From IMG/VR virus record IMGVR_UViG_3300027974_000100, positions 1-31,549 of that record: 31,549 nt of DNA; one strand, written 5' to 3'. Within the stretch, counting starts at the first letter, position 1; each line of letters opens with the position of its first letter. Origin of the DNA: a virus. Below are positions 6,348 to 31,090 of this stretch, in pieces. The translations under genes and the position numbers were made by a program. The notes beneath the pieces are model-generated. The model was not told where the DNA came from. It did no database searches and worked only from the letters and a program-made list of their open reading frames with translations.

Positions 6348-6376
6348 TATAATGGTGATTATTGAAGTTGTGTTTT
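6348..6376 (-). promoter_or_regulatory. Candidate phage late promoter (tape measure operon)
   Basis: Read on the minus strand, AAAACAC (6370-6376) is followed after 14 bases by CCATTATA (6348-6355), and then exactly 4 bases before the ATG. The same arrangement recurs at 11194, 28530, 31063 and, with CCATTATG, at 13392. The transcript would have almost no leader. Confidence 0.6.
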
Positions 6377-6394
6377 AAATGATTAGAATGACAC

Positions 6395-9300
6395 CTATAC
6401 AATTGTAAATATTCTGTTTGCTAATACTACTTTGCCTATGTCTGTTCGCCATCTAACACTTATTGATTCTGTGCCATTAACAGTTGTTGTTCCTTGCAGT
6501 GTAACATCTTCAACATAGGTATTATAATATCTAGACCTTTCTGTAAACGGTATTTGAGTATTGCCTTTATAAAGTGAAAAAACATTAGTATCACCAAGTG
6601 ACTGTGTAGGGTCAAAAGCAACCCCATTAAATACACTACCTAAAAATATAACAACGGTAGCACTTCCTGTTCCTAGATTTCCAGTAATTTTTGCTAAAGC
6701 TGTATTTGTTATCCCTCCTGAATTTGTAAACGCCAAAAAGCTATCTAAAATCCCCATTGGAATAAGGCTTACATCAGTTGGCTTACTTATTGTTCCAGCG
6801 CCAAATGCAATTGACCCCGCAGTTGACAGTAATCTACCATTAAATGTAGCATTTGCTCCTAATGCCGCTGCCGCAGCAACCGCAATGAAATTACCATTTA
6901 GAACATTATTTGCTCCCAACCCTAAAGCACCATTTGCTAAGAAAAATACATTAGCAGATTTCACTCCCCCAGTAAGTTGAACTGTTGTAGATGGTGTTGT
7001 GTTTAGAGCTCCAGTCGACCTAAATACAAATATATCATTTACACCACCATTTAAGGTTAGAACCCCAGTTATTGACATTGCGCCAGCAACATCATAAATC
7101 CCAGCTGTTAATGTTTCTCCACTACCGAATGATAATCCGTGAGTGCCTGTTGCTGTAAGGTTGTTGATATATAAAGTTAATGCTTGCAAATCTATCGTAG
7201 CAATTTGAACAACGTTTCCTGGTATTGAAAGATAGTGCCCATTGAAATCTACCTTATACGTTCCTGCAGGAGGAGTAAATTCTAACCCTGAAGCAACAAC
7301 ATCAATATTTGAGGTTGTTTCAATTTGAGTGCCTGAAGTTATAGAATATACAGCTCCAGATAAAAGCGTATTAACTCCATCCACAAATCTATAAATACCA
7401 TCTTCGGTAACTACACCATCGTCACCTTCTATGATGCCTTTAACACCAGGCATTACAATGTTATTCCTACCTTTAATAATTACATCTGCTCCCACCCCTA
7501 CTGCATTTGTATTATTTGCAATTGTTTCATTCACTCCTGTGTAAACATGAGTAAAAGCACCTTGAGGTTGTTTGGTAATCTTTGTTTTAAATGGAGCAAA
7601 ATCTATCTCACTATCTGTAGATAATAGTTCAACTTTTGTTAGTTGTTTGTTGTTAGCATCGTAATCTATTACCTTGTTTATTGACCACCAAGAATTATCT
7701 ATTCTAATCTTGTCATTTAGCTTTAAACTCTGAATATCATCTTCTTTCAAATTGAAGTAGGCAATCAACATCTTGCCAGTATTAATTTGGTTTATTGTAC
7801 GCCTCCAATATGAATTATAAAGATTATTATCTGTCGGTGTGTAGAAGTCGTAATACATATAATCACACAACGCAAAGTTGATGTCTAATGTAGGATTCAA
7901 CGCATCGTCATAGTGATGCATCAAAGGATATTCTAAGATACCATACATTCCTGCAGAGCCTGAATCTATAATTGTATATTGGCTACAAGACTTCATGCCA
8001 CCATCATACAAAATTCGAATGTTAGTCTTAGGAGAACTACCTGCCACTATTGGCACATAAGCACCAAATGTTGTTTGACCAATTGGTGAAGGGGAAAAGA
8101 TTAATTCTTTTGTATCAATTTTTTTTACATACTCGTTATCAAAGATATATTCTACTTGACCGTATACTTCTCTTGTAGTATCGTAGTAAGTTACGTTAGG
8201 TGTATCCTTGTCTTGCTTGTATGTAAGTATAAGTTTTTTTGATGCTAGTTCTGGTAAGAAGTTTAATACTTGTTCTTTGTCTTTTGCTAGTTTGTAAGTC
8301 CAGTCTTTTTCTATGCCACTATCATAGAAGTCATCTCTAGTTTTTAATATTAGTGTATTTGCATTGTCCGTATCTATTTCAACATATAGATTGAACATTT
8401 GAAATATTGACTTAACAAAATCTTTTTGCTTTATCTTGTCAGGTACAAATTGATTCATATTTAACACCGTGCCTACTGCCAAAGTATTAGATGAAATATT
8501 AGCAGTCAATTTTAAAGATGTGTAGTTTAACTGAGGTGTCATTATAGCAGGAACAACTGCAGGAGTTACCCAGTGTAATGTTGTATTTGAGTTATCTACA
8601 CCTACACCTATTTTAAATGTTAATTGTGTTCCTGCATTGACATTGCTTATTGGTAACGTGAAATGATTGTTTAAACTGATTATCGTTGTTGTACCAGGCG
8701 CATATGGTGCAGAATTTATACCATTAGTAATTACATCATAAGGAGTAGAAAAAACAAATATTGGTATGGTTGGAAAATTACTTCTAAACACTTGTATTTC
8801 TAAAACATATCTTTGTCTAGGAAGCGTAGAATAAGAATAGTCGGTATTATACAAACTTAAATTAACACCAGTTGCATTGACAAGCTGAATATCCCCTATA
8901 ATATCTATACCAATGTTAATTACCTCTGCCCCTGATGCAGGAAATGGACAAGTGTAAACGCCAGTAGTAGGATTGAATAAGTTTTGACCGTCTAGTATCT
9001 CAGTAAATGAAGTTAACTGCTCTGAAAATCCTATAGTGTACGGTGTTTGAACTATACTTACAATATCCGCAGCGTGAGTTTCTTCAACTGCATAGTTCGA
9101 ATAAGGCATAGTAACTAAATCGCCACTATATGGAATAATAAGTTTATCAAATCCACACGCAACTAACGAAGACCATTCATAATTATATCCTGCATTTTGA
9201 AAGATTCTATCAAAGTAAACCTTTGCATAAATAGCAGGTCGAAATTCAGCAAGACTGTATAAGTTACCAGTATTCCAAGTCAAGCCATATTTATAGCCAT

Positions 9301-9775
9301 CTGTTACATCATGCGTAAACGACGAATAAATATTAGCTGAAGATATAGCATGATTCAAATCTGAATAGTCAATGTCTTTTAGCTCTTTAGTATCAATATC
9401 AGTAAAGAATGTTGACGCTTGGTCTTTAATCAATACCGAGTATTCAATATCTTGTTCAAAGCTAGAGTCCTTTTGAATCTTATTAACTGACAACAACTGC
9501 ACAAACGCATCTGATAGAATAGGAATACCATTTTGAACAACTGTACATTTAGTCAAGGCATTGATATTAAATGTACCCGCTACTATATTGACATCGTAGT
9601 AATGGTTAAGCAAGTCGTGGTTATTCTTCGTTCCAACAAGTGTGATAGTCTTCGAGAATGCACCTGCTCTTTTGCTTACATCTCGAATGTCTGCTATACC
9701 AAAGTTTAAAGGAAAAGCAGTATCTTCTTTGACATCTAAATAACCTGTTGCTAGTTGTATTCTTACATTATACAT
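6395..9775 (-). CDS. Large tail protein with ice-binding-like (DUF3494) domain
   Basis: The protein has 1126 residues. The N-terminal 750 or so resemble the baseplate/tail-hub proteins of Bacteroidota siphophages. Residues of about 835-995 carry repeats characteristic of the DUF3494 beta-solenoid family of ice-binding proteins: GETLTAGIYDV, SITGVLTLNGG, a VFRSTGAL-type strand, ANVFFLANGAL and ATFNGRLLSTAGSI. The final 130 residues look like a compact beta tip (ending in an SVRWRTDIGKV-type strand). The fold may serve as an adhesion or shaft module rather than bind ice. The gene overlaps the upstream tail gene by 8 bases. Confidence 0.75.
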   Translation of the reverse strand: MYNVRIQLATGYLDVKEDTAFPLNFGIADIRDVSKRAGAFSKTITLVGTKNNHDLLNHYYDVNIVAGTFNINALTKCTVVQNGIPILSDAFVQLLSVNKIQKDSSFEQDIEYSVLIKDQASTFFTDIDTKELKDIDYSDLNHAISSANIYSSFTHDVTDGYKYGLTWNTGNLYSLAEFRPAIYAKVYFDRIFQNAGYNYEWSSLVACGFDKLIIPYSGDLVTMPYSNYAVEETHAADIVSIVQTPYTIGFSEQLTSFTEILDGQNLFNPTTGVYTCPFPASGAEVINIGIDIIGDIQLVNATGVNLSLYNTDYSYSTLPRQRYVLEIQVFRSNFPTIPIFVFSTPYDVITNGINSAPYAPGTTTIISLNNHFTLPISNVNAGTQLTFKIGVGVDNSNTTLHWVTPAVVPAIMTPQLNYTSLKLTANISSNTLAVGTVLNMNQFVPDKIKQKDFVKSIFQMFNLYVEIDTDNANTLILKTRDDFYDSGIEKDWTYKLAKDKEQVLNFLPELASKKLILTYKQDKDTPNVTYYDTTREVYGQVEYIFDNEYVKKIDTKELIFSPSPIGQTTFGAYVPIVAGSSPKTNIRILYDGGMKSCSQYTIIDSGSAGMYGILEYPLMHHYDDALNPTLDINFALCDYMYYDFYTPTDNNLYNSYWRRTINQINTGKMLIAYFNLKEDDIQSLKLNDKIRIDNSWWSINKVIDYDANNKQLTKVELLSTDSEIDFAPFKTKITKQPQGAFTHVYTGVNETIANNTNAVGVGADVIIKGRNNIVMPGVKGIIEGDDGVVTEDGIYRFVDGVNTLLSGAVYSITSGTQIETTSNIDVVASGLEFTPPAGTYKVDFNGHYLSIPGNVVQIATIDLQALTLYINNLTATGTHGLSFGSGETLTAGIYDVAGAMSITGVLTLNGGVNDIFVFRSTGALNTTPSTTVQLTGGVKSANVFFLANGALGLGANNVLNGNFIAVAAAAALGANATFNGRLLSTAGSIAFGAGTISKPTDVSLIPMGILDSFLAFTNSGGITNTALAKITGNLGTGSATVVIFLGSVFNGVAFDPTQSLGDTNVFSLYKGNTQIPFTERSRYYNTYVEDVTLQGTTTVNGTESISVRWRTDIGKVVLANRIFTIV

Positions 9776-11189
9776 TGATAGTGTTTTGATTTGCGAATGT
9801 AACTGTTATTGACTTCTTAAATAGTTTCTTGTTTCTTTGCTTATTCACTTCAAATGAATTTTCATTTATTATAACTGCTGCATAAGTTTCGTCAGGCATT
9901 TTTAAATAAACCAAAGGCGAAGTTATCAACTGCTCAAAGTAGATAGACATTTCTTCAGTCATCCAGTTAGTATTCAAGTCTAATGTTTTAGTAACATTAG
10001 ATGAATAGATGCTTTGCCCGAATGATTCTGAAGTGTAACCCCATTCTTGACTTGTAATACTTCCTTGAACATCTCTATTGAATCCTTGTTTTTGAACCGT
10101 TCCTTTCTCATACGCTCTCAACTGAAAAGCAAATGATCCATAGCTTCCCATCCTATCTAAGAACAATAAAGAATAATCTTCTATTACACATCTCTTGTCA
10201 ATGTTCACACGGTACTTTTGTGAATGCTGAACACCTGCAGAATTTGTATACCAAAAATCATAATACTCAGTAGTTGTATTGATAAGAGGACCAGCACCAC
10301 TTACTACGGTCAAACTACCATAATTACTAGGACCTACTGGTACACCTGAAATATACGAGCTTGTGTTAATTGCTTTCTTAAAAATGCTACCTGCATTATT
10401 TTGAAAGTACACAAATCCTGTGTCTACTTTGGCATTACCAAAATTAATTATCAAGTCTTGATTATATGTAGAATAAAAGCCATTTGTCGGCATATCAGTA
10501 AGTAATAAATCTAAACTATTGTTTAAGATATAATTTGCACTTTCAAAAGTAATCCAATTTTGAAAAGACATTGCACCATTAAACACATAGCTATTTGTAA
10601 CACCTAGTATATTTTGTATAACAGTTTTTCTATTGTCTGAGTAGCTTACCGTTCCATCTATCAAAGCATTTGTTACTTGCGACCAAAGAGAGTTGACTGT
10701 AAACGAAGTAGTACCAACAACTGACAATACGGTAAACAATCCTTCCAAGTTTGGATTAGCTGCTCCACCATCTGATTGTATTATTCTAACTTGGTCACCT
10801 ACTACATACGAATGTGTTGCAGTTATTCTTACGTTACCTGCGTTATTTGTCAATGAAGATGTATAACTTACTGTTGTTATAAACTCCTCACCTACCATTA
10901 CATCATACTTATAATATGAATTAGCAGCATCGTAAGCCGTAGTGTTATACAAATTACTATCGTAACTTACTTTAGTTTGAAGTAGCTTTGATATATCTAT
11001 CTCACCATAACCAGTTAAGTACTGCGGAAACACTCTGTACTGCGCTATTTGAACATCCGTAACCGCATCGTAAACATCAAATATGTATCTGAATCCTAGT
11101 TCATTTTTGTTTGTTGAATCTACTATAAACTTGCATGGGTTATACGCAGGTGTGAATACTTGGGGTGATGCTAATTTTGTCGTTGCCAT
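9768..11189 (-). CDS. Tail protein, distal-tail/baseplate type
   Basis: The protein has 473 residues and is beta-rich. At about 110-185 an inserted module (YVVGDQVRI, then GLFTVLSV and TSFTVNS strands) resembles the small FCCH-like beta domain often found in phage tail proteins. The C-terminal part contains a conserved-looking segment around VIINENSFEVNKQRN. It lies between TerL and the large tail protein and has its own late-promoter-like signal directly upstream. A distal tail or baseplate role is inferred from position. Confidence 0.6.
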   Translation of the reverse strand: MATTKLASPQVFTPAYNPCKFIVDSTNKNELGFRYIFDVYDAVTDVQIAQYRVFPQYLTGYGEIDISKLLQTKVSYDSNLYNTTAYDAANSYYKYDVMVGEEFITTVSYTSSLTNNAGNVRITATHSYVVGDQVRIIQSDGGAANPNLEGLFTVLSVVGTTSFTVNSLWSQVTNALIDGTVSYSDNRKTVIQNILGVTNSYVFNGAMSFQNWITFESANYILNNSLDLLLTDMPTNGFYSTYNQDLIINFGNAKVDTGFVYFQNNAGSIFKKAINTSSYISGVPVGPSNYGSLTVVSGAGPLINTTTEYYDFWYTNSAGVQHSQKYRVNIDKRCVIEDYSLLFLDRMGSYGSFAFQLRAYEKGTVQKQGFNRDVQGSITSQEWGYTSESFGQSIYSSNVTKTLDLNTNWMTEEMSIYFEQLITSPLVYLKMPDETYAAVIINENSFEVNKQRNKKLFKKSITVTFANQNTINV

Positions 11190-11193
11190 ATCT

Positions 11194-11222
11194 TATAATG
11201 GTTAATTTTTTATTCGTGTTTT
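11194..11222 (-). promoter_or_regulatory. Candidate phage late promoter (tail genes)
   Basis: On the minus strand AAAACAC (11216-11222), 14 bases, CCATTATA (11194-11201), 4 bases, ATG. The upstream box overlaps the TerL stop codon, so transcription could restart between packaging and tail genes. Confidence 0.6.
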
Positions 11223-12372
11223 AGAAGCTGAAGTAACTATCGTCAGTATAGTAATTGTCTTTTATGAATCGACCTGCATACTGAATCGCATCCATTGCAT
11301 CGTCAAATAGTTTCACAGGCTCATCCGTAATTGAATCGCCTACCTTCTTCCACTTGTAGTTCTCATATTCTCTTTTAAGATTTGGATTATCAAGGCATAT
11401 CACTCCGAATGTTTTAACGTTGTCAATTCCTTTTTTAACGCCCTTCGTTGCGTTGTTTATATTGTACCCTGCGATTTGTATCTCTGCTATTATTTCAGGC
11501 CTTGAATGGTCGCCTAAGATGTCAGCATTCTTATCAACTCCAATCTCATTCATTCTCTCTATCAACATAGTGGTAGTTAGATAGCTTTCATAGATTACTG
11601 ATTCAATGAATATATCTTTCTCATGCCAGTATACCTTTATTAATGCAGTTGGATGGTTATATCCAAAGTCTAACCCATAACAGAATGATTCAAACCTAGC
11701 AGGTCTTTCTTTAACAAATTGCCAGTTACTATAGATGTTCGTTTTAGATGTTGTCTTCTCACCTAATGCATAGATTTGATACAATGCTTCATCTGTTCGT
11801 TTCAAGTCTTCTATCTGTCGCTTGATTGAATCAGGTAGGAATGGATTGTCTTTGTATGTAGATTTTATTAGGATGCTTTCGTCTTCAGGAAGTTCGTATA
11901 ACCAACTTGAACTATCAGAAGGATTATAGTCAAATATCATTGTCGATTCAGTTCGCATATTCAACTGCTGAAAATCTTCAAACCATAACTCATTGGCTTC
12001 ATTACACCAACCGATATCTCTTTTTCGACCTCTTATCTTTTGCTCGTCATCTACTGAAAAAAACTCAACTATAGATCCGTTACCAAAACGATATATATTC
12101 TCACTCTTATTATGGCTCGTCACCTCATAGATTTCTAAGTCTTTCATTATCTCAAAGAAATCACGCATCACAGTTGCTCTTAAAGCAGGAAACGTCTTTC
12201 TAACTATTGATACTACCTTGTTAGGATTCTGAAGGCAGTAGACAATTATAACCTGACAAAGTGAATAGGTCTTGCTTGAACGTGAGCCACCTTGATTGAT
12301 TATGAATCGTGTAGCTGAATCAGATAAGGCAGTATAATTCTGCTCAAAGATTTTAGTTGCTTTGATTTCCAC
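11221..12372 (-). CDS. terL: Terminase large subunit
   Basis: This 383-residue packaging motor has Walker A GGSRSSKT (28-35), a Walker B/catalytic Glu in IGWCNEAN (about 120-127), and RNase H-like nuclease acidic residues in YGLDFGYNHP (Asp235), LGDHS (Asp288) and LFDDAMDA (Asp357/358/361). ATPase followed by nuclease is the normal domain order, though the length is at the short end. Its start lies inside the TerS gene (20-base overlap). The G-S-R-S-S-K-T form of Walker A is common in PBSX/SPP1-type enzymes, which package by headful; that would fit the circular assembly, but it is inference. Confidence 0.95.
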   Translation of the reverse strand: MEIKATKIFEQNYTALSDSATRFIINQGGSRSSKTYSLCQVIIVYCLQNPNKVVSIVRKTFPALRATVMRDFFEIMKDLEIYEVTSHNKSENIYRFGNGSIVEFFSVDDEQKIRGRKRDIGWCNEANELWFEDFQQLNMRTESTMIFDYNPSDSSSWLYELPEDESILIKSTYKDNPFLPDSIKRQIEDLKRTDEALYQIYALGEKTTSKTNIYSNWQFVKERPARFESFCYGLDFGYNHPTALIKVYWHEKDIFIESVIYESYLTTTMLIERMNEIGVDKNADILGDHSRPEIIAEIQIAGYNINNATKGVKKGIDNVKTFGVICLDNPNLKREYENYKWKKVGDSITDEPVKLFDDAMDAIQYAGRFIKDNYYTDDSYFSF

Positions 12373-12769
12373 TTACAATTGTTACTTTGATTTCGTTTAT
12401 CTTTTCTCCTTGAGATGTAACATCTGTTTTTTCAGTAAGTGAATTTAATCGTTGTGTAATACTTGGATTGAATTGCCCGACCATACCTCCTTCGATTTGG
12501 TCTTGACGAATGACTTTCTTTATATGTGAACAGATAGTCCTATAATCGTTATATCTCTCATCTGTATTATCAAAGTAATGATGTATATCTGAATAATTTA
12601 TAAAGCAAAAGTTCTCAAATCCTTCCATTGTAAACGGTGGTGTATGAAATTCAGACTTCACTCCTGCTGCAGTTGCTTTCTGTATCTCTCTTGGCTTTAT
12701 GCTTGCCTTATACTCTTGGAATAGTTCGTATAGTTTCTCAGGTGTTTCTATATACTTATGTTTTGCCAT
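12353..12769 (-). CDS. terS: Terminase small subunit
   Basis: The protein has 138 residues, directly upstream of and overlapping TerL. It starts with a helical segment (IETPEKLYELFQEY) and contains FTMEGFENFCF, both typical of small terminase subunits of Bacteroidota phages. The C-terminal 40 residues are polar and end in a beta-like tail that would contact TerL. It recognises phage DNA and regulates TerL. Assignment rests on position plus these segments. Confidence 0.8.
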   Translation of the reverse strand: MAKHKYIETPEKLYELFQEYKASIKPREIQKATAAGVKSEFHTPPFTMEGFENFCFINYSDIHHYFDNTDERYNDYRTICSHIKKVIRQDQIEGGMVGQFNPSITQRLNSLTEKTDVTSQGEKINEIKVTIVSGNQSN

Positions 12770-12799
12770 TATTCGTATTTTTCTAGTTTTCTAAATAAC

Positions 12800-12826
12800 A
12801 CATTTTGTGTAATACATTTTGTGTAA
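12800..12826. repeat. Tandem 13-bp direct repeat upstream of TerS
   Basis: ACATTTTGTGTAA occurs twice (12800-12812 and 12814-12826), 14 bases apart, in the short gap between a small ORF and TerS. On the coding strand each unit is TTACACAAAATGT, which contains a partly palindromic ACAC/GTGT core. This could be a protein-binding site or part of a packaging signal. Confidence 0.5.
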
Positions 12827-12830
12827 CTTT

Positions 12831-12986
12831 CTATCCTTTGACACTTTGAATGTAGTTGAATGCTTGATAAAGTAGTTGTATTTGTCTTACATCTGATTTA
12901 ATGAAGTTTGAGTCAATATCTATACTCATTCCTTTCTGTTGAAATATGTATTCTTTAACGGATGCTATCATATAGTCAAGATTCAT
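12831..12986 (-). CDS. Small hypothetical protein, 51 aa
   Basis: A short ORF encoding MNLDYMIASVKEYIFQ and so on. Its ATG overlaps the stop of the preceding gene in an ATGA arrangement, the standard coupling in this genome, and it fills an otherwise empty stretch before TerS. The product is soluble and helical. No family is recognised. Confidence 0.6.
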   Translation of the reverse strand: MNLDYMIASVKEYIFQQKGMSIDIDSNFIKSDVRQIQLLYQAFNYIQSVKG

Positions 12987-13255
12987 TTCTTCTTAGTTCG
13001 TGTTTTTTTCACTACTGGAACTTGCTCAGGTGCTTTCACTCCAGATAATTGAGCCATAGCAAGAGTATATGCTTCATCTACAATCTCTTCAACTGTAGCT
13101 TCAGCTTCAAAGATATGACCTAATCCGTTTCTTGAATACCAATCATAATGCTTTGGTAGTATTTTATCAATTATTACATTTTGATTGCCTAATACACTAT
13201 TATACACAATAACAGTCTTGCCTTTATATTCATCCTTTATTTGCATTTTTCTCAT
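12983..13255 (-). CDS. Small hypothetical protein with basic tail, 90 aa
   Basis: The protein has 90 residues, with a beta-like N-terminal part, an acidic helix around 50-70 and a Lys/Arg-rich C-terminus (VVKKTRTKKK). The basic tail suggests nucleic-acid or capsid binding. A second ATG 9 bases downstream (MQIKDEYK) is an equally good start. It sits between a sigma-like gene and TerS. Function unknown. Confidence 0.55.
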   Translation of the reverse strand: MRKMQIKDEYKGKTVIVYNSVLGNQNVIIDKILPKHYDWYSRNGLGHIFEAEATVEEIVDEAYTLAMAQLSGVKAPEQVPVVKKTRTKKK

Positions 13256-13394
13256 ATTCGTTTATTAATAAAAATATTATATGACTAAGAATCGCAGCAG
13301 CAACAAACTTGTTTGTGTATTCATAATCATTCCATATTGCTACAGTCATTCCAATAGATAGAACAAATGTTATTAATGCTATCCATCTACTCAT
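13230..13394 (-). CDS. Small two-helix membrane protein, 54 aa
   Basis: A short ORF whose product starts MSRWIALITFVLSIG. Two hydrophobic segments (about 4-21 and 31-44) are separated by a polar loop, giving a hairpin membrane protein. Start and stop overlap the neighbouring genes (8 bases with the sigma-like gene, 26 with the next). The candidate late promoter at 13392-13420 overlaps its start codon, so this gene is probably expressed from the upstream transcript. Function unknown. Confidence 0.6.
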   Translation of the reverse strand: MSRWIALITFVLSIGMTVAIWNDYEYTNKFVAAAILSHIIFLLINEYEKNANKG

Positions 13395-13923
13395 AATGGT
13401 CTTTTTTCAATTCGTGTTTTAATCGTCTTAAATCTGATTTCATTTCAGTTATCATTGCGTGTGCCGTGAACACAGATATATTAAAATGGTCTGCAATGCT
13501 TCTAGTCGTGTTATATCCTTTGTCGTGAAACGTCTCAAAGAATATTAGTTTGATTCTGTCATCTACTGTATTACGATATATTTCTATAACTGACTTCTGC
13601 TCCTGGTAGTTCAATTCAAATAGAATCTTATCTTTCAATTCATCTTCTGCTTCTTCAATAGGCATATTACTTTCTACACTATTGACTATCTCTATCTTGC
13701 TATTTGTATCTCTAAACAGTAACTCACATTTGATAAAATGAAATAGAAAGTCTTGAACGTTTCCGTATTTAAACTTTGACTCGTTTTTTAAACAATTCAG
13801 ATAAGCATTAGAAATAACAGTATCTGCTTCAATTCGTATTTTTATACGATTCAAAAGATACATTGTGTATTTCTTCACATCAATGTAGTGCAGTTGAATA
13901 TATCTATCTAGTGAGTCCTTCAT
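13387..13923 (-). CDS. Sigma-70 family-like (ECF-type) transcription factor
   Basis: The protein has 178 residues, the usual size for a two-domain ECF sigma factor. Residues 5-70 resemble region 2: helices ending in a DTVISNAYLNCLKN-type segment and FLFHFIKCELLF. Residues 125-172 resemble region 4, with helix-turn-helix TTRSIADHFNISVFTAHAMI followed by a basic helix. It is divergent, so it could bind DNA without being a true sigma factor. It sits between early and late genes. Five late-promoter-like sites with an AAC-containing upstream box, as ECF sigma factors use, make it the likely late activator; one site lies inside its own 3' end. Confidence 0.65.
   Translation of the reverse strand: MKDSLDRYIQLHYIDVKKYTMYLLNRIKIRIEADTVISNAYLNCLKNESKFKYGNVQDFLFHFIKCELLFRDTNSKIEIVNSVESNMPIEEAEDELKDKILFELNYQEQKSVIEIYRNTVDDRIKLIFFETFHDKGYNTTRSIADHFNISVFTAHAMITEMKSDLRRLKHELKKDHYE
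13392..13420 (-). promoter_or_regulatory. Candidate phage late promoter inside sigma-like gene
   Basis: On the minus strand AAAACAC (13414-13420), 14 bases, CCATTATG (13392-13399). It lies in the last codons of the sigma-like gene and would drive the small genes at 13255-12831 and then TerS and TerL. It differs from the other four sites in the last base of the -10-like box. Confidence 0.5.
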
Positions 13924-23591: not shown

Positions 23592-23642
23592 CTTAATTAA
23601 CGATATAAACTTACAAAATGTTAATTATAACGTTTAATTAAG
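23592..23642. repeat. Inverted repeat in the non-coding control region
   Basis: CTTAATTAACG (23592-23602) faces CGTTTAATTAAG (23631-23642), complementary apart from one extra base, in an AT-rich stretch. It could act as a DNA-unwinding or binding element next to the iteron-like repeats. Confidence 0.4.
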
Positions 23643-23681
23643 ACAAAAATTTTCCACTATAGATGGATTTAATACTGCTAA

Positions 23682-23762
23682 AAGTGTACTATACGGCACT
23701 TTTAAGTGTTTATTACGTTTATTAAGTGTTTTTCTCCTTCACAAGTGTACTATACTGCACTT
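23682..23762. repeat. Iteron-like array, candidate origin or operator
   Basis: AAGTGT occurs at 23682, 23704, 23724 and 23743, that is, every 19-22 bases or about two helix turns. The outer two belong to imperfect 20-bp palindromes (23682-23701 and 23743-23762) that agree at 19 of 20 positions and have AAGTG/CACTT ends around a TATA centre. This lies in the only gene-free stretch over 300 bases (23459-23845). Evenly phased sites fit a replication origin or a multi-operator switch. Confidence 0.5.
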
Positions 23763-23769
23763 TAGGCAC

Positions 23770-23796
23770 AAAAAAAAGGAGGCTATTACACCTCCT
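23770..23796 (-). terminator. Intrinsic terminator after the metallophosphoesterase gene
   Basis: On the minus strand AGGAGG (from 23796), loop TGTAATAG, CCTCCT, then a run of T down to 23770. It separates the late leftward transcript from the early promoter. Confidence 0.75.
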
Positions 23797-23845
23797 CATT
23801 CAATCCAAACCTAAACAAAACAAAAATTTTAACTCTGCAAATATA

Positions 23846-24880
23846 TTAAAAAATATGTGTTAACCTAGCAACTTGCCCATTATATTTTGAATGTATATAT
23901 CCTTCTATTGCTTTTACACCACCACAAAAACCGTTTCTGTGATGCCAAGAATCTGTACCTGAAGGTGAACGTAAACTTTCAATCGTTATACCCGGAAAGT
24001 CTTTACCACTTTTGTGATGAATGTGATGTGTGTAAACGTATCTGTGTTTAGTGTTAGCCCAAAGTATAGAATGTTCTGTAGCATATAGCAATGGTAATGC
24101 TTCTAATTTGGCACCGTCTCCGTGTGTAGTGCCTATGAAGTTATCATAGTACTGAAATGCTTTGCGATGTTTTAAATCAACGTTAAAAACGATGTTTTCA
24201 GCTTTATGAAAATGTGCTTCAATAAGTTGTAGCAAAAAGAATCCGTGTGTGTAATCGTGATTAGATGGATTGTACACTACTTCAACATCTGCAATATGTA
24301 CTAACATTTCTAATAGATCAATGTACAACTGTTTTGCAGTTAAAAAATTATCATACCACATTCCATCGGTATCTTGTGGTGTTCCTGCAGTTGTAGAACT
24401 TTTAGTATTATCTGTGTGAAGAATATCGTTTCCTGCAACAAAAAGAATTTTATCTATTGTATAACCTTTGCTCTTTTGAATAATACCAATCAATCCTTCC
24501 TTTGCTCTTTGTACTGCGATTTGGCAATTATAAGTTTCTCCAGTTTCAAATGCACTAGATAATTTACCGATATGCAAATCGGCAATATCAATTACTAATA
24601 GATTAGAATCTTTATCCTCAACGCGTTCTATCTTCTTGTACTTTGGTGAATGCTTTTTTGTAGCTTCAATCGTTGCCTGTTGTATTATAGAAAATCCTTG
24701 TTCAACTTCTGTTTTAAAGTTTGGATTTTTAAAGAACAAACTTGCTTTATCTGTTTTTAACCAACCGTGTTTAACGTCTTCGTCATTTACATCAGCTGAA
24801 TCAGTAGCATTCTTTATTCCTCTATATTGTTTAATTATTTCTAGTTCATCTGGTTTCAATCGTATTCTATTATTCGACAT
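23846..24880 (-). CDS. Calcineurin-like metallophosphoesterase
   Basis: The protein has 344 residues. The metal-binding motifs are in normal order: DLH (Asp101, His103), GNDILHTDN (150-158), NPSNHD (204-209), THGD (252-255) and YTHHIHH (283-289). Such enzymes hydrolyse phosphoesters of nucleotides or DNA; a nuclease or nucleotidase role is likely, but the substrate cannot be read from the sequence. The N-terminal 90 residues are a separate helical region. The gene lies between lysozyme and the control region, with terminators on both sides. Confidence 0.85.
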   Translation of the reverse strand: MSNNRIRLKPDELEIIKQYRGIKNATDSADVNDEDVKHGWLKTDKASLFFKNPNFKTEVEQGFSIIQQATIEATKKHSPKYKKIERVEDKDSNLLVIDIADLHIGKLSSAFETGETYNCQIAVQRAKEGLIGIIQKSKGYTIDKILFVAGNDILHTDNTKSSTTAGTPQDTDGMWYDNFLTAKQLYIDLLEMLVHIADVEVVYNPSNHDYTHGFFLLQLIEAHFHKAENIVFNVDLKHRKAFQYYDNFIGTTHGDGAKLEALPLLYATEHSILWANTKHRYVYTHHIHHKSGKDFPGITIESLRSPSGTDSWHHRNGFCGGVKAIEGYIHSKYNGQVARLTHIF

Positions 24881-24942
24881 TTTTATCTGTTTTAGGTGAA
24901 TATTTTGTCTAGTTTTTTAAGCAATAAACTTGACATTTTGAA

Positions 24943-24968
24943 ATAAAAAAACCTACTGATTAGTAGGT
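24943..24968 (-). terminator. Intrinsic terminator at the lysozyme gene end
   Basis: On the minus strand ACCTACT, loop AATC, AGTAGGT, followed by T7. The perfect 7-bp stem contains the lysozyme stop codon, so terminating ribosomes would cover the hairpin. Confidence 0.75.
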
Positions 24969-25489
24969 CTAAAGCACTTAATATAATCATTGGCTCTATT
25001 TAACCAACCTTTTAAAAACTTATTATTTGTTTTTCCAACTGCTCCGATTGACTTGAAAAAAGCAATTCTTAAACGCATCAACTCATCAAATAATTCTAAG
25101 TCATTACAACTGTTCGCAGCTTCAATAGTTTTCATTCCAACCTTGCCATCAACAGTAACTTGTTTGCCTAGTTTATTCAATGCCGTTTGTAGTGTTATTC
25201 CTGCTCTTGACGCACCACTTCCCCAAGCCATACCTGTTACAATAACTGCAATTGAAAAGCATTTATAGTCATCTCCTTTGACTGAATCCCAGTATAAAGT
25301 TTTGAAGACCTTAAACCAATCTTCATTTGACATCTTCATAAATCTTGTGTGATTGTCGTGACCAAAAACTGAACACCATACTTTATAAGTTATTCCGATA
25401 TTTGTTTCACCACCTGAATCTTGAGGGTCGTTAACCCATCCACCTTCCCACTTCTTAGTAAAAGCTACATAATCTTTAATTGTTTTCAT
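24953..25489 (-). CDS. GH108-family endolysin (lysozyme)
   Basis: The protein has 178 residues. KKWEGGWVNDPQDSGGETN (12-30) holds the catalytic Glu15 in the pattern EGGxxNDPxDxGGxTxxGIT of glycoside hydrolase family 108 muramidases. A C-terminal part with VTVDGKVGMKTIEA resembles the peptidoglycan-binding-3 domain that accompanies it. The start at 25489 is preferred to 25522, whose first 11 residues do not fit the family. There is no signal peptide, so release to the wall needs the holin. The spanin gene is just upstream. Confidence 0.9.
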   Translation of the reverse strand: MKTIKDYVAFTKKWEGGWVNDPQDSGGETNIGITYKVWCSVFGHDNHTRFMKMSNEDWFKVFKTLYWDSVKGDDYKCFSIAVIVTGMAWGSGASRAGITLQTALNKLGKQVTVDGKVGMKTIEAANSCNDLELFDELMRLRIAFFKSIGAVGKTNNKFLKGWLNRANDYIKCFRPTNQ

Positions 25490-25496
25490 ATTTGTT

Positions 25497-25940
25497 TTAT
25501 TTAAATTTAAACAAAAGTACAATTAATAAGATAAGAAATGCAATTATTCCAAGAAATCTAAAGTTGTAAGCAAAACCTTTTCTTTTATCGTTTTTAATCG
25601 TTTTAACGGCTTCTTTAGTTCTCCACTTTGTATTGTACTTAATTAGCTTTAAAGTATCTCTAATCGTTTTATATTGGTATCTAATTTCATATCGTGTTAA
25701 TGGCGCTTGTAACTCAGGACATTTTACAGAAACTTCACGGTAAATAATTGAATCTTTGCCATCCTTACCTTTGATAATAGTGTTTACAGTAACCACCGTA
25801 GTGTCGCATACAATCTTACCACCTTTTTCAATGAATTTTCTTTGATGAAATTTCGCTGAACAAGAAATCAAAAAGAATAAATAGATAGATAATAGAATCA
25901 TAAAGATAAAAGTCGAAAGTTGTGTATAGTTTATTTTCAT
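25497..25940 (-). CDS. Putative unimolecular spanin (lipoprotein with C-terminal membrane anchor)
   Basis: The protein has 147 residues. A type II signal sequence with lipobox LISC (24-27) anchors the N-terminus in the outer membrane. The central periplasmic region is about 95 residues of beta/helical type, and residues 128-146 form a strong C-terminal membrane helix (GIIAFLILLIVLLF). Outer-membrane lipid plus inner-membrane helix in one chain defines u-spanins such as T1 gp11, which fuse the membranes in the last step of lysis. It lies between a holin candidate and the lysozyme. Confidence 0.75.
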   Translation of the reverse strand: MKINYTQLSTFIFMILLSIYLFFLISCSAKFHQRKFIEKGGKIVCDTTVVTVNTIIKGKDGKDSIIYREVSVKCPELQAPLTRYEIRYQYKTIRDTLKLIKYNTKWRTKEAVKTIKNDKRKGFAYNFRFLGIIAFLILLIVLLFKFK

Positions 25941-26158
25941 TTTTCTAGTTTTTTACTGAATGAATCCGAAATCTTACTACCTACTGCAACCGAAAGAAAC
26001 CCAAAGAATACTTCTGAATTATAACCATGCACAAAGAAATCGATTAAGCCAACAAGCACACATATAGAAAAAGAAGTAAACATTGTAAGCGAAGTTCTTG
26101 ACCATTTACCGTCTTTCTTTAAAGTATCACGAAATAACTCTTTTATTTTTTCTTTCAT
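25937..26158 (-). CDS. Putative holin
   Basis: The protein has 73 residues from the ATG at 26158 (MKEKIKELFRD); a start at 26173 adds five residues. A charged N-terminus is followed by a membrane helix (about 26-44), a short loop and a second weaker hydrophobic segment, with a Lys-rich end. Size, topology and position next to spanin and lysozyme support a holin that releases the lysozyme. It overlaps the next gene by 4 bases. Confidence 0.65.
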   Translation of the reverse strand: MKEKIKELFRDTLKKDGKWSRTSLTMFTSFSICVLVGLIDFFVHGYNSEVFFGFLSVAVGSKISDSFSKKLEK

Positions 26159-26357
26159 TTGGAAGTATAGCAACTAATTTCTCTTTTATTAATATCTCAC
26201 TTCTATGTGTAGATGCTTGTTTTATTTCTTGCCTATCATTTAAGCAATGGAATAATCGTTCTTCTACAGATGATAATCTACTGTTCATCCAAATTAAAGC
26301 AATAACGGTCATTCCTAAAGCACCGTGTTTTTTTATGGTTTCTAAAATTTCAAGCAT
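26127..26357 (-). CDS. Small membrane protein, possible holin partner
   Basis: The protein has 76 residues, with one N-terminal membrane helix (HGALGMTVIALIWMN) followed by a soluble, charged helical part. This is the shape of an antiholin or a second holin-like protein. It overlaps the putative holin gene by 32 bases and begins the lysis cassette after the connector gene. The role is inferred from position and topology. Confidence 0.5.
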   Translation of the reverse strand: MLEILETIKKHGALGMTVIALIWMNSRLSSVEERLFHCLNDRQEIKQASTHRSEILIKEKLVAILPNERKNKRVIS

Positions 26358-26367
26358 TGTGGTTTAT

Positions 26368-26877
26368 TTATAAAAAAAGTATTGAATCGTTAAATCCTTG
26401 TGTTTGTTGTACTGCAGGTCTGATGTCTGAATCTCTATTTAACTGTGAAATGAAGTTAGCAAACAAGTCTCTATTCGTATCTAAATACTTCCATAAACGT
26501 GATTCGTAGAAACTAGCTTTCTGTGCATAGTGGTCTTGAACAAAGTTAACTTCGCTTTGATTCACGTTATTTGAGTAGTCACCGTTTTGCGTTTGGATTC
26601 CTTTATTTTTAAGTTGGTAAGATAAACCGAAAGCAGCATCTTCTGCACTTCGCCAAGCTATAGCAGGTTGAATATATGTCACTAGTTCTTCTTCGTCAAC
26701 TGTTAACGTTTGGTCATTATATGCAGTCAATATGTAGTTATAAAAATAAGTACCTAAAATCGGCATTATTCTCATGTCACTTTGAGTTTTAATAAAAGGC
26801 ACAATATTGTTAATGTCAATATTCGCAGTTATTGGTGTTTGCGTTTTTAAATAGTTTTCTGTTACAAAATAAATCAT
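26368..26877 (-). CDS. Head-tail connector/adaptor protein
   Basis: The protein has 169 residues, mostly helical, with IMPILGTYFYNYI (37-49) and AIAWRSAEDAAFGLSYQLKN in the middle. This resembles the gp6-like adaptor proteins (DUF6712-type) of Bacteroidota phages. Such proteins form the ring under the portal to which the tail binds. It overlaps the portal gene by 4 bases, which supports the role. Confidence 0.65.
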   Translation of the reverse strand: MIYFVTENYLKTQTPITANIDINNIVPFIKTQSDMRIMPILGTYFYNYILTAYNDQTLTVDEEELVTYIQPAIAWRSAEDAAFGLSYQLKNKGIQTQNGDYSNNVNQSEVNFVQDHYAQKASFYESRLWKYLDTNRDLFANFISQLNRDSDIRPAVQQTQGFNDSILFL

Positions 26878-28169
26878 AGTGCAGGAGGTGTTTCAATTGG
26901 TTTTAATCCTAGTAATTCTCTCAACTCGTTTTGAGTCATTGAATCAATTAATTTAGTAGCTAAAGCAGGATTTACTGTTGCAATAATATTAGAGATTTCA
27001 CTAGTTCGCTCATCCATTTCAACAATCGTTTCATTAACAATCTGAAAGTTATTGATTACTACTTTTGCTTTGATTTTGCAAATTTCTAAAATCTCGTTAA
27101 AGATTTCTTCGACTGAATTACGCAAAGGAATAATACTATTCTTTTCAAATATTACATAAGACTGTTTAATGTCGCTCCCACTTCCTAACTTACCACTTAC
27201 ACGAATACCCATTAAGATAGGATCTATAATATGTGCCTGACAAATCTTTGAATCTATGCTTTCAGTAGTAACCTGAAACAAGCCATCATTTGAATTTGTA
27301 GGTATTGCTTCAATCGTTGGTAAAGATTCCTTGTTGTTAGCAAAGAATGCAATAGCTTTTCCTGCATTTGTAGCACCTTTTGCTCTATCAATAGTAGTTT
27401 TTATATTCTGCTTTTCTTCTTCGTTCTGTGGCTTCTTTGGAAACATCATAGCAAACGATGGAAAAATAGAATTTTGTATGTTAGACTTTTGCAAGTATGA
27501 CATTTCGCCATCTAAAAACGCCCAATTCATACAAGAAGAATACTGTGGAAGTGTGTAAACGTCTTGACCTACTGAATAGTCTTCGTAACAGTATAGGAAT
27601 TCACGTTCTTTAGTGTTGAATTTATAAGGACAAATGGTCTGAATATTTATCTGTGTACTCCAATCATCACAAATGTAGTATAAATCACCTATTGCATTCT
27701 TTCTTACCTTGTCTGCCGCTATATGCTTACAGAAAATAAGTGTTCCAGTTTGATTAAATCGCAAGTGAAAGTATACTCTTCCGTGAATGATTTTTTCTTT
27801 AGTAACTGCAGGAAGTATCTTTTTTAGATTCATTCGCTTTTCAAAAGCATAGATGTCTACTTTCTCCATTGGTGAAGTAGTTTGAAGATATTGCAATTCA
27901 TATCCACCTCCAACCGTAGCATTCGTTTTAAAGTCCACTACTGCACCATGCAACGGCGAAGTATAGTACATTTGATTTAATAGCTGAGGATAAAGATTGT
28001 CGTTTCCAAATCTAACGTAGTTACCAACGTTTAACCTAGCATTAACATAAGGTAGAGATAAGTCTCCTCTACCTACTTTTAAGAATGGTGTAGAAAACGC
28101 TTGATATCCTCCTACTTCTTCTACTTCTACGGATTTGTTTGCTCCGAATTCAAAACCTAAAATTTTCAT
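26874..28169 (-). CDS. Portal protein
   Basis: The protein has 431 residues, within portal range. The N-terminal segment YVRFGNDNLYPQLLNQMYY, followed by SPLHGAVVDFKTNATVGGG, is the typical opening of portal proteins from Bacteroidota phages. The long helical middle and the Leu/Glu C-terminus fit the stem and crown. It forms the dodecameric ring through which TerL pumps DNA. It overlaps the connector gene and shares one base with the preceding gene. Confidence 0.88.
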   Translation of the reverse strand: MKILGFEFGANKSVEVEEVGGYQAFSTPFLKVGRGDLSLPYVNARLNVGNYVRFGNDNLYPQLLNQMYYTSPLHGAVVDFKTNATVGGGYELQYLQTTSPMEKVDIYAFEKRMNLKKILPAVTKEKIIHGRVYFHLRFNQTGTLIFCKHIAADKVRKNAIGDLYYICDDWSTQINIQTICPYKFNTKEREFLYCYEDYSVGQDVYTLPQYSSCMNWAFLDGEMSYLQKSNIQNSIFPSFAMMFPKKPQNEEEKQNIKTTIDRAKGATNAGKAIAFFANNKESLPTIEAIPTNSNDGLFQVTTESIDSKICQAHIIDPILMGIRVSGKLGSGSDIKQSYVIFEKNSIIPLRNSVEEIFNEILEICKIKAKVVINNFQIVNETIVEMDERTSEISNIIATVNPALATKLIDSMTQNELRELLGLKPIETPPAL

Positions 28170-28525
28170 TAATCGTAAATTGTGTTTGTTACTACTCCTG
28201 CAACTACCATTCTGCCTTCTTCTACTACATTTAAACCAGTATAGTAATCTATAGCTTGGTCTACAATGACAATAGGATTTGCAGATTCATAAACAGTATA
28301 TGTATATTGCCCAATTACAAAAGTGGCATCTACACCTTCTTCTAATTGGAATAAATTATATCTTTCTATGTAAGCTGATGTATCTGTACCCATCCATTGA
28401 AAGCCTTGTAAATCTTTGTTAAATTCATTTTGGAAAAGAAAAAGATAGTAAGGATTCGTAATAGTCGAAGTCTCAGCTAAAGTGAGTACAAAAGTGTTTA
28501 CAGAATCTTTTTCAAAGTATATCAT
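28169..28525 (-). CDS. Small structural protein, 118 aa
   Basis: A beta-rich product starting MIYFEKDSVNTFVLTLAE, with an NPYYLFLFQNEF segment. Similar short proteins occur in virion gene blocks of Bacteroidota phages. It is the first gene after a terminator and has its own late-promoter-like signal, which suggests separate control of the portal unit. Specific function unknown. Confidence 0.5.
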   Translation of the reverse strand: MIYFEKDSVNTFVLTLAETSTITNPYYLFLFQNEFNKDLQGFQWMGTDTSAYIERYNLFQLEEGVDATFVIGQYTYTVYESANPIVIVDQAIDYYTGLNVVEEGRMVVAGVVTNTIYD

Positions 28526-28529
28526 ATAT

Positions 28530-28558
28530 TATAATGGTTATTAATTACGATTTGTTAT
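28530..28558 (-). promoter_or_regulatory. Candidate phage late promoter (portal/lysis unit)
   Basis: On the minus strand ATAACAA (28552-28558), 14 bases, CCATTATA (28530-28537), 4 bases, ATG. It stands directly downstream of an intrinsic terminator, the expected place for a new promoter. Confidence 0.65.
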
Positions 28559-28562
28559 AAAA

Positions 28563-28590
28563 CAAAAAACCCCCACTAATAAAGTGAGGG
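28563..28590 (-). terminator. Intrinsic terminator after the tail-tube gene
   Basis: On the minus strand CCCTCAC pairs with GTGGGG (one bulge) around a TTTATTA-like loop and is followed by T6. It ends the protease-capsid-tube unit. Confidence 0.75.
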
Positions 28591-28611
28591 TAGGGATAGC
28601 AAAGTTTACTT

Positions 28612-29121
28612 TTAAACTAGTAAACCTGCAATGATAGTAGGATCAACTTCGTATGCTAAGTTTTCGTTTTCAGCAACCATCGTGATAGAATATTTACTAC
28701 CGTCAGCTTTTGCAGTTCCACTTCCTTCAGCTACTGCAGTAACTTGTGCAGTTGGAAAATACCAATACTTACCGTTAGCATCTAAAACGATTACTGCTAA
28801 GTCTCTTTGTCCTTCTCCTAAGATTTTGATTGAACGAGATTTTGCTGCTTCACGTCTGTGAAACATTAGTGTAATAGTTGCAGTTACGAATGAAGAGCCA
28901 TTGATTAAATCATTCGCTTGGTCTTCCGTGTACATTCCTGTGTTACGTTTAAACTCAAAAGGAATGAAAGGGTGTCCATTAGTTATAGCAGTTACTTCCC
29001 AGTTAGCATCGTCTACAGTTACTGCAGTTACTTCTGATTGGTCGTTTATGAATACTGTTTGGATACCACCGATATTATTGTCGCATCCTTTAGTTATTGT
29101 CGTTATTGTATTACAAGCCAT
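28612..29121 (-). CDS. Putative major tail (tube) protein
   Basis: The protein has 169 residues and is beta-rich, with few charged clusters. Segments NGHPFIPFEFKRNTG and YSITMVAENENLAYEVD resemble small tail-tube proteins of Bacteroidota siphophages. It follows the capsid gene between two terminators, an arrangement that would allow a separately tuned high dose. A capsid decoration protein is the main alternative. Confidence 0.5.
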   Translation of the reverse strand: MACNTITTITKGCDNNIGGIQTVFINDQSEVTAVTVDDANWEVTAITNGHPFIPFEFKRNTGMYTEDQANDLINGSSFVTATITLMFHRREAAKSRSIKILGEGQRDLAVIVLDANGKYWYFPTAQVTAVAEGSGTAKADGSKYSITMVAENENLAYEVDPTIIAGLLV

Positions 29122-29135
29122 TTTTTTTATGTATT

Positions 29136-29168
29136 AAAAAAGGGTAGGCGAATCCACCCACCCTTTTT
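29136..29168 (-). terminator. Intrinsic terminator after the capsid gene
   Basis: On the minus strand AAAAAGGGT pairs with ACCCTTTTT, with GGG/CCU inside and an 8-base loop. The flanking A and T runs make it symmetrical. With no clear promoter after it, it probably works partially, lowering expression of downstream genes relative to capsid. Confidence 0.65.
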
Positions 29169-29190
29169 AGTTAATTAATAAAACTAGTTC

Positions 29191-30108
29191 TTAAGAATAA
29201 AGAACAATTTCAGTAGGATTAGTATACCAAAATCCTACCTTCAAGTTAGCACGAGTTCTCAAATACGGCTCAGCAACTGTATCATTCAAGTTAACTGCTC
29301 TCAATGCTTTAGCATCAGCTTCAGAATCGAATGCATAAATCAAATTGTTCTTCAAAGTAAGAACTGCAGTATTGTTAGGAAGACCTTCAGCAACTACCAT
29401 CTTAATTCCTAAGAAAGTCAAAGCTAAAGGAATAGTAACGAATGTCTGTGTGTTACCTTGTGCAGCAGCTAATTCATAAGCAGTAGCAATGTTAGAAGAA
29501 ACATAAAATCGTAAATCCGCTTTCTTACGTTTGATAGTAGCAGGAGCAGCATTTAAAATCAAAGTTAATTGTGCAATAACGTTACCTGATGTAATAGCAA
29601 CATTTGCAACATCAACTACTGCAGCATCAGCTAACAATCTCTTAAGATATCCATCGCACAAAGCAAGTAATGTATCTTCAGATTCTGTATCACCATTCCA
29701 TCTTAATAACTCAATATCTTCACCAATTTGCATTGACATTGTCTCCCAGTAGTAAGACATAAATGAAGCAACTTCAAAACTTCCGTTAGAACCTGCAGCC
29801 ATTTGTAAAGAAAGGAATGATTGCTCTAAGTCAAACTGACAGATTTGAGCCATAGCGGATAAAGCACATACGTCAATATCGATTGCATCTAATGTATCAT
29901 TAGGTGCAGAGAATGCACAAGTACTTGATTGTAGGATTGAGCCAAAAGCGATATTAGCTAATTTAGTAGCTGATTTAATACCAGGCAAAGTTCTGTAGTT
30001 GTCTACAATATCTTCTGTAATATAAGCACGAGAATAAAACTCGTTAGGGTTAGCACATAAAAGTGCGTTTGTTTCAATATCTAAATTGAATTTTAAGTTT
30101 CTTGACAT
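29191..30108 (-). CDS. Major capsid protein
   Basis: The protein has 305 residues. It follows the prohead protease gene with a 2-base gap and is flanked downstream by a strong hairpin, as expected for the most abundant virion protein. The sequence has the mixed helix/beta layout of HK97-fold capsids: N-arm to about 50, a long helical region with EDIELLRWNGD near 135, an ADLRFYVSSNIATAYE domain, and a C-terminal NLKVGFWYTNPTEIVLYS strand. Five Cys lie in the N-terminal half. Confidence 0.8.
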   Translation of the reverse strand: MSRNLKFNLDIETNALLCANPNEFYSRAYITEDIVDNYRTLPGIKSATKLANIAFGSILQSSTCAFSAPNDTLDAIDIDVCALSAMAQICQFDLEQSFLSLQMAAGSNGSFEVASFMSYYWETMSMQIGEDIELLRWNGDTESEDTLLALCDGYLKRLLADAAVVDVANVAITSGNVIAQLTLILNAAPATIKRKKADLRFYVSSNIATAYELAAAQGNTQTFVTIPLALTFLGIKMVVAEGLPNNTAVLTLKNNLIYAFDSEADAKALRAVNLNDTVAEPYLRTRANLKVGFWYTNPTEIVLYS

Positions 30109-30110
30109 TT

Positions 30111-31058
30111 TTAGTCTTTGTTAAATTGGTTAAACTTCATTAATTTTTCGTGAGCAGTTAATTTTTGCTCGGTAACATCCGTAACTTCTTCTTCAAGTGT
30201 TGGAATCATTGCTTTTACTTCTGCAATAAGTTGAATTAGTTCGTTGTATTTTTCATCGATTGTAGGCATAACGATTGCTAGGATAGCTTCAGCATCAGCC
30301 GTTGGATCAACAGACATTTCTGCCTCTTCAACAACTACCTCTTCTTCTACTACTTCTTCAGCCATTACTACCTCTTCTTCAACTACTTCTTCAGCTTCTA
30401 CTTCAGTTGCAGGTGCATCTTTCACTTCAACAATTTCTCCGTCTGTTACAACGTAGATTTTGCCTTCAATCAGATGTTCTCCGTCAGGTAAATTCATACT
30501 ATTATTTATTATTTGATTACTGTTTAATTTCAATCCTAAGAATCCTTCGATTGAGAATCCTAACTGCTCACTTTCAACTAGCTTATTGTAATACTCTTTG
30601 TCAGTAATTTGAGCAGTCAACATTAAAGTTCCTTTAGGCACTTCAATACCGTATGAACTAAATGCTTTATCGGATTTCGGATTCTCAACTATCCAACTTT
30701 CAAGAATGTATGCTGGTACTGTTTGCCCTGCATCGTGTTCTAAGTTGAATAAGTTTTTGTTGTTTAGATTCTGCATAAAATCGGAGTAGATAGTTTCAAT
30801 CTCTTGTTCAGAAAATTGAACGTAATATTCTCCTTCTTCATCGTTTCTATAAATATCCATTGGAATCATCGCAGGTGCTACAATTCTCATCTTTGGCTCA
30901 TCTGCAAACTGCATTACTTTAGTGTGACTATTAAAAGCCATACCTTTGACTAAGATAGCAGGTTTAGAAGTGAAAGCGACTTGTTCAATTCCTAGTACTT
31001 CACCGTCAGAATATTCTTCGTCAATCGTAACTTTAAAAATTGGAATATCATTCGCCAT
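30111..31058 (-). CDS. Prohead protease (XkdF/S78-like) fused to scaffold
   Basis: The protein has 315 residues. The protease part (about 55-180) contains FNLEHD (catalytic His108), ESWIVENPKSDKA (120-132) and LGFSIEGFLG (catalytic Ser169), the pattern of XkdF-type serine proteases. Residues 218-255 are an extreme Glu/Val repeat and the rest is a charged coiled coil, consistent with an internal scaffold that is cleaved away. It starts the head operon, immediately after a late-promoter-like signal. Confidence 0.85.
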   Translation of the reverse strand: MANDIPIFKVTIDEEYSDGEVLGIEQVAFTSKPAILVKGMAFNSHTKVMQFADEPKMRIVAPAMIPMDIYRNDEEGEYYVQFSEQEIETIYSDFMQNLNNKNLFNLEHDAGQTVPAYILESWIVENPKSDKAFSSYGIEVPKGTLMLTAQITDKEYYNKLVESEQLGFSIEGFLGLKLNSNQIINNSMNLPDGEHLIEGKIYVVTDGEIVEVKDAPATEVEAEEVVEEEVVMAEEVVEEEVVVEEAEMSVDPTADAEAILAIVMPTIDEKYNELIQLIAEVKAMIPTLEEEVTDVTEQKLTAHEKLMKFNQFNKD

Positions 31059-31062
31059 ACAT

Positions 31063-31090
31063 TATAATGGCATATACTTTTTTTTGTTAT
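31063..31090 (-). promoter_or_regulatory. Candidate phage late promoter (head operon)
   Basis: On the minus strand ATAACAA (31084-31090), 13 bases, CCATTATA (31063-31070), 4 bases, ATG at 31058. The upstream box equals that at 28552-28558. Confidence 0.65.

Follow-up and report, generated by a model that had tools for sequence, protein, structure and literature searches.

The phage genome analysed here very probably carries a late regulon of nearly leaderless mRNAs controlled by an ECF-like sigma factor that the phage itself encodes; it is from the sequence that we infer sigma binding, transcript starts and late timing. The window, that is, the whole stretch of DNA that was analysed (31,549 nucleotides), is an IMG/VR record of a Bacteroidota phage with 32.6% G+C and nearly all genes on the minus strand. 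Five copies of a two-part element, one of them degenerate at its ATG, would be promoters read by the sigma-like protein (13387-13923) together with the host RNA polymerase core: sigma4 would read the invariant AAC at about -31, sigma2 would read a -10 octamer specific to each phage group (CCATTATA in the window), and transcription would start exactly on the A of the start codon or no more than about two bases from it. The late mRNAs that encode the protease/capsid, portal, tail and tape-measure proteins would then be leaderless or nearly so. In the simplest reading, a host sigma factor transcribes the early genes and the phage sigma factor subsequently drives the late blocks; the sigma gene stands close to where the leftward early/middle cluster ends, and from this place at the end of the operon its synthesis would switch on the late blocks.

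It also seems rather likely that a widespread clade of Bacteroidota phages makes its late switch in this way, by means of a fast-diversifying ECF-like sigma factor, promoters fused to the start codon and leaderless virion mRNAs, in hosts whose own messages are mostly leadered, and that Nonlabens phage P12024L achieves this too, using a separate sigma-like protein that shows no recognisable homology.

Promoter candidates in the window

The preliminary description of this DNA listed five minus-strand sites, and all of them were present when the sequence was read back. The sites and the hairpin next to one of them are:

31063..31090, minus strand: putative late promoter of the protease/capsid block, ATAACA-N..-CCATTATA (octamer 31070-31063; AAC 31088-31086; ATG 31058)
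28530..28558, minus strand: putative late promoter of gene 28169-28525 and the portal gene, directly 3' of a terminator-like hairpin
28569..28591, minus strand: terminator-like hairpin ending the preceding transcription unit, before the 28530-28558 site
11194..11222, minus strand: putative late promoter of tail gene 9768-11189
6348..6376, minus strand: putative late promoter of tape measure gene 4223-6343
13392..13420, minus strand: fifth site, in the 3' end (last codons) of the sigma-like gene and 5' of a 54-aa ORF and TerS/TerL

The genes that begin at these sites are:

30111..31058, minus strand: head maturation protease (Peptidase_S78_2/XkdF-like), first gene of its block
28169..28525, minus strand: 118-aa gene before the portal gene, first gene of its block
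9768..11189, minus strand: tail-block protein with no family match, first gene of its block
4223..6343, minus strand: tape measure protein, first gene of its block
13230..13394, minus strand: 54-aa ORF (MSRWIALITFVL...), small membrane-protein-like, first gene after the sigma-like gene

Four sites have the form AAC-N15/16-CCATTATA-N4-ATG and stand at the heads of the protease, pre-portal, tail and tape-measure genes, which agrees with the earlier assignment of the sites to first genes of virion blocks. The AAC core and its spacing had been compared with those used by ECF sigma factors, and the comparison holds: measured in the ECF style, the spacing is AAC-N16-CCAT, with N15 at the protease site. 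The portal unit, described as following a terminator, is indeed preceded by the hairpin at 28591-28569. A distance of exactly 4 nt between octamer and ATG, also part of that description, was confirmed at 6343, 11189, 28525 and 31058 and is absent at the fifth site in the window. There the sequence reads CCATTATGAGTAG, whose ATG is the start codon of the 54-aa ORF; in the window's phage group the site carries CCATTATG, overlapping the ATG of that 54-codon ORF (13394 leftwards), and it also overlaps the sigma-like ORF at its stop codon. Groups B, C and F have a canonical site behind the sigma gene (CATTATAATT-ATG, CATTATAAACT-ATG and TATTATCAATT-ATG); in the window's group this site is degenerate at its ATG, where the spacing is lost.

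Other features were seen along the same strand. A second terminator-like hairpin (29142-29163, minus strand) lies just upstream of gene 28612-29121; relatives keep it in front of the gene, in the form of a G+C-rich hairpin with a T run behind it. Besides, the large tail protein at 6395-9775 (minus strand) contains an Ice_binding-like domain (PF11999, E 1.7e-20), which could be a receptor-binding or adhesion module.

Motif counts and unbiased search

The pattern as first described, (AAAACAC or ATAACAA)-N13-14-CCATTAT[AG], occurs five times on the minus strand of the window and 0 times on the plus strand; in 200 dinucleotide-preserving shuffles, where five or more hits had been named as the refuting outcome, its count was 0. 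The form AAC-N15-17-CCATTATA-N4-ATG is found 4 times in the window versus 0 in the 200 dinucleotide shuffles. An unbiased dyad search was also carried out, in which the octamer was not given and every hexamer lying 2-7 nt ahead of the ATG of an ORF was considered if an AAC stood 15-19 nt upstream. The top words in the window were ATTATA, CATTAT and CCATTA, at 4 ORFs each, a result equalled in 0 of 200 control draws, and the same search found a counterpart motif in P12024L (0/200 controls). For a group F phage (G023) the motif was not singled out by this search; sites are nonetheless seen at its gene heads. Together with the number of sites per genome in relatives (mostly 3-5, against shuffle means of at most 0.15), the shuffle counts and the unbiased search exclude a chance occurrence in an AT-rich genome.

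Five TerL-related isolates (hattifnatt9-1, snork6-1, Fpv5, BU2-2 and BT16) have neither a homologue of the sigma-like gene nor a comparable motif that is not A-rich; four of the five come from Flavobacterium, Bacteroides uniformis or B. thetaiotaomicron hosts. The top word of hattifnatt9-1, AAATAA (4 ORFs), exceeded nearly all controls and is A-rich and leader-like.

Two other promoter types were considered and rejected. A scan for E. coli-type sigma70 promoters gave 87 hits versus 97.7 in shuffles, i.e. no excess, and promoters of the host primary sigma factor are discarded since the TAnnTTTG box is missing from all of the late sites.

Start codons and leaders

In ECF promoters the +1 position lies about 6-8 nt past the CGT/CCAT core. 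From this geometry and the position of the sites, +1 would fall at the A of the ATG or within about 2 nt of it, which lends support to the earlier proposal that the short distance to the ATG implies nearly leaderless late mRNAs, with 5' ends placed by geometry. Across groups, the N-termini of the four proteins align from the site-linked ATG and in-frame stops are found 6-54 nt upstream of it, so that wrongly assigned start codons can be discarded. It is rather unlikely that the promoters are as proposed and the term leaderless is wrong in detail, the messages having a short leader or starting inside the codon. The AAC-to-ATG distance goes from 26 to 29 nt, so +1 may shift a few bases, but the ECF geometry sets it about 0-2 nt from the A and the conserved N-termini begin at that same ATG.

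The late heads are without the A-rich leader typical of the other genes. Among 27 late heads pooled from 8 phages, which are not independent, A is found at -3 in 33% versus 59% of other genes, and at -12 in 15% versus 75%. In F. johnsoniae, A at -3 favours initiation, and leaders exceed 10 nt in 87% of the predicted transcripts (PMC6847099). Of 37 Bacteroidetes/Chlorobi genomes in a survey, only 1 was found to have leaderless genes (PMC3160421). The late mRNAs of the window would probably be leaderless or nearly so.

Variation of the -10 half among relatives

Relatives were gathered by scanning IMG/VR with the protease and the sigma-like protein, and many were found; 77 loci were read upstream of the protease start, and the contigs of 22 relatives were examined for gene heads. 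Across the 77 loci the two-part element is recognisable in group-specific forms, with AAC upstream of the protease start in every group:

group A: ...CCATTATAATGT-ATG
group B: ...TTCATTATTGTT-ATG
group C: ...CTATTATAAGGT-ATG
groups D/G: ...TTAATATATAC or TTAATATAGGC-ATG
groups E/F: ...CTATTAT...-ATG

The protease promoter keeps its position in relatives down to 57-64% protein identity (protease gene). Conservation in relatives had been proposed as a check, and in the 22 contigs the element stands at the same heads as in the window (protease, pre-portal, tail, tape measure and just after the sigma gene), the architecture at orthologous gene heads being the same in groups A-G. The protease, pre-portal, tail and tape-measure heads all carry sites in groups A, B, C and E, and subsets of them do so elsewhere; in group D the tail (tail9768) and tape-measure heads are without a site and other late heads carry it. 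Orthologous sites are not independent, and the strength of the comparison comes from different gene heads, different groups and P12024L.

The -10 half changes with the phage group (CCATTATA, CATTATA, CTATTATA or TTAATATA), and the distance from AAC to the octamer stays at 15-17 while the position relative to the ATG shifts by 1-3 nt. Octamer mismatches (of 8) were 0.77 among gene heads within a phage versus 2.95 between groups (0/5000 permutations), exact values that hinge on hand alignment of the octamers. Because unrelated sites change together, a shared trans-acting reader that differs between phages is suggested; the group-wise variation of the -10 half points to a factor co-evolving with its sites. 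A -10 that varies by group and is uniform within a phage is what a phage-encoded specificity factor would be predicted to produce.

One 33-kb contig (G005; loci L111/L112) contains two sets of protease and late genes with different -10 variants. The second virion gene set has CATATA as its -10, and a sigma-like ORF of greater divergence (E 1.3e-11) lies on the contig as well. This contig is probably two genomes or a chimeric assembly.

The sigma-like protein

The factor proposed as the reader of these sites is encoded as follows:

13387..13923, minus strand: predicted 178-aa ECF-like sigma factor (full-length TIGR02937 matches; AlphaFold2 model; Foldseek matches to ECF sigma factors)

The preliminary description had called this 178-residue protein (13923-13387) ECF-like, and the profile and the predicted fold support that name. 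The NCBIfam profile TIGR02937 (sigma-70 ECF) aligns with it end to end (residues 4-166), taking in the sigma2 motif (ADTVISNAYL against the ADDLVQE type), with 17 bits, below the curated NCBIfam cutoff of 42.9 bits; among 49 orthologs, 27 are matched (E up to 0.1; best E 7.9e-6). The Pfam families Sigma70_r2/r4 do not match the protein, whose only Pfam match is the Mga HTH. An AlphaFold2 model built from the 49 orthologs (mean pLDDT 77, pTM 0.41) has two helical domains (helices 2-70 and 95-177) joined by a low-confidence disordered linker (73-93). The predicted layout, sigma2 at about 1-72, linker at 73-93 and sigma4 HTH at about 122-166, with neither sigma1.1 nor sigma3, is that of ECF sigma factors. 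When the model was compared with the PDB by Foldseek, the top matches were almost all ECF sigma factors (SigL and SigH of M. tuberculosis, and also AlgU, RpoE and SigW), spanning both domains, with probability 0.9-1.0 and a modest best E of 1.7e-3; whole-chain TM-scores are low (about 0.3) because the arrangement of the two domains is not confidently modelled. Foldseek against BFVD gave phage proteins annotated as RpoE/ECF sigma. Sequence searches of the PDB, with the sigma-like protein alone or as a profile, gave no matches, and a scan of genome contigs found no encoded relative of it. The HTH is the domain best conserved between groups (60% identity versus 41% for sigma2); a conserved HTH fits the invariant AAC, and a drifting sigma2 would fit the variable -10.

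It is decidedly unlikely that the protein is instead a small late activator (RinA/ArpU-like, with only a sigma4-like HTH) acting on the AAC, while a host sigma factor reads ATTATA as an ordinary -10. Phage late activators of such size exist, TIGR01636 (phage_rinA) matches 4 of the 49 orthologs (E 0.008), the sole Pfam match is an HTH, and there are TATAAT-like letters near the ATG. However, TIGR02937 and the Foldseek matches cover both domains, it is the -10 half and not the -35 half that varies by group, as would follow from a phage factor that reads the -10, and TAnnTTTG, the -7 consensus of the Bacteroidota primary sigma factor, is missing from the sites.

Recognition by an alternative (ECF) sigma factor of the host is very unlikely. 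Bacteroidota hosts encode many ECF sigma factors with AAC-type -35 elements, but the variants differ between phage groups and agree within one phage, and the five TerL-related phages without the sigma-like gene are also without a comparable motif. That the element is no promoter at all, and works at the start codon as an operator or as a signal in the RNA (a repressor site or translational enhancer), is scarcely credible: the distance to the ATG is fixed, but the two-part spacing fits ECF promoters, the ATG and not the AAC-to-octamer distance moves by group, Kozak-like A's are depleted at late heads, and one copy immediately follows a terminator-like hairpin, a place that calls for a new promoter.

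Genome context

The host was probably a member of the Bacteroidota (Flavobacterium-like), as the phage's relatives, its TAnnTTTG boxes and its lack of Shine-Dalgarno sequences indicate. One such box faces the protease promoter:

31099..31106, plus strand: TATATTTG, Bacteroidota-type -7 box (TAnnTTTG), candidate divergent host-type promoter back to back with the protease late promoter

Most relatives also have this box, which on the late strand reads CAAATATA. Intergenic TATATTTG boxes are also found in the early/middle region (23845, 23496, 21124, 19031 and 14587). In the window the plus-strand box abuts the minus-strand protease promoter (31086-31106), and in P12024L, too, CAAATATA adjoins late sites that neighbour small divergent genes; early and late promoters that overlap could act as a switch.

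The only plus-strand genes are two ORFs divergent from the protease (31120-31549 joined to 12-265, and 240-974), which overlap in different frames and resemble a tail-assembly-chaperone pair with a possible programmed frameshift. Bases 1-11 (TCTTCCGATCT) resemble an Illumina adapter remnant. Bases 12-137 are repeated exactly at the right end (31424-31549), which makes it probable that the record represents a complete genome of about 31.4 kb, either circular or terminally redundant.

A parallel case in a cultured phage

The Nonlabens (Persicivirga) phages P12024L and P12024S (Inhavirus) have a gene order broadly similar to that of the window, including, in P12024L, a sigma-like gene shortly before TerL (gp35, Pfam Sigma-70 region 2), whose product passes the Pfam Sigma70_r2 cutoff. 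The protease of P12024L has about 32% identity with that of the window over half its length. Seven gene heads of this phage, with ATGs at 179, 3031, 5412, 22090, 24771, 26011 and 27612, carry AAC-N16/17-CGTTAATA-N3/4-ATG, with the -10 variants CGTTATTA and CGTTAATT; most of these sites stand before the opening gene of a unit in the virion region, and one follows the sigma gene at a short distance. Unlike the window, where the -10 is CCATTATA, P12024L has CGTTAATA. AAC...CGT with 16-17 nt is the textbook form of an ECF promoter, and the P12024L sites match this classical geometry.

Direct homology between the window sigma-like protein and gp35 is not detectable by profile comparison. As far as the factor is concerned, P12024L would be an analogous case, giving parallel support to the mechanism and not to a common descent of the factor. 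In both phages the sigma-like protein and these promoters would be cognate.

Significance and comparison with other known systems

Little seems to be published on late-gene timing in Bacteroidota phages, and the set of literature that was searched yielded neither a described late ECF or leaderless phage regulon nor a paper describing a late regulon for P12024L, in which the prediction is directly testable. Since factor and promoter set can be read from sequence and many natural variants of both halves exist, these phages offer a data set on sigma-promoter co-evolution. If the late mRNAs are leaderless, the phage would use a mode of translation uncommon in its likely hosts.

A close parallel is with the ECF (group IV) sigma factors (E. 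coli RpoE, B. subtilis SigW, M. tuberculosis SigL/SigH), which share with the window system the sigma2-linker-sigma4 layout, the predicted fold, the AAC -35 and the 16-17 nt spacing. However, identity is very low (10-16%), and the window factor differs from them in being phage-encoded, in having late genes as its targets and in its A+T-rich -10. Annotated ECF-like sigma factors of other phages (Citrobacter phage CVT22, Salinivibrio phage CW02, Cronobacter phage GAP52 and Agrobacterium phage Atu_ph04) have a similar predicted fold (BFVD); they belong to other hosts and phage types.

T4 gp55 and SPO1 gp28/gp33-34 are phage-encoded factors that redirect the host RNA polymerase to late promoters, the role proposed here for the window protein. 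On the other hand, T4 gp55 reads a -10-only promoter and needs the clamp and gp33, the SPO1 factors are not two-domain proteins of the ECF type, and the late mRNAs of T4 and SPO1 are leadered, whereas those of the window would begin at or next to their start codons.
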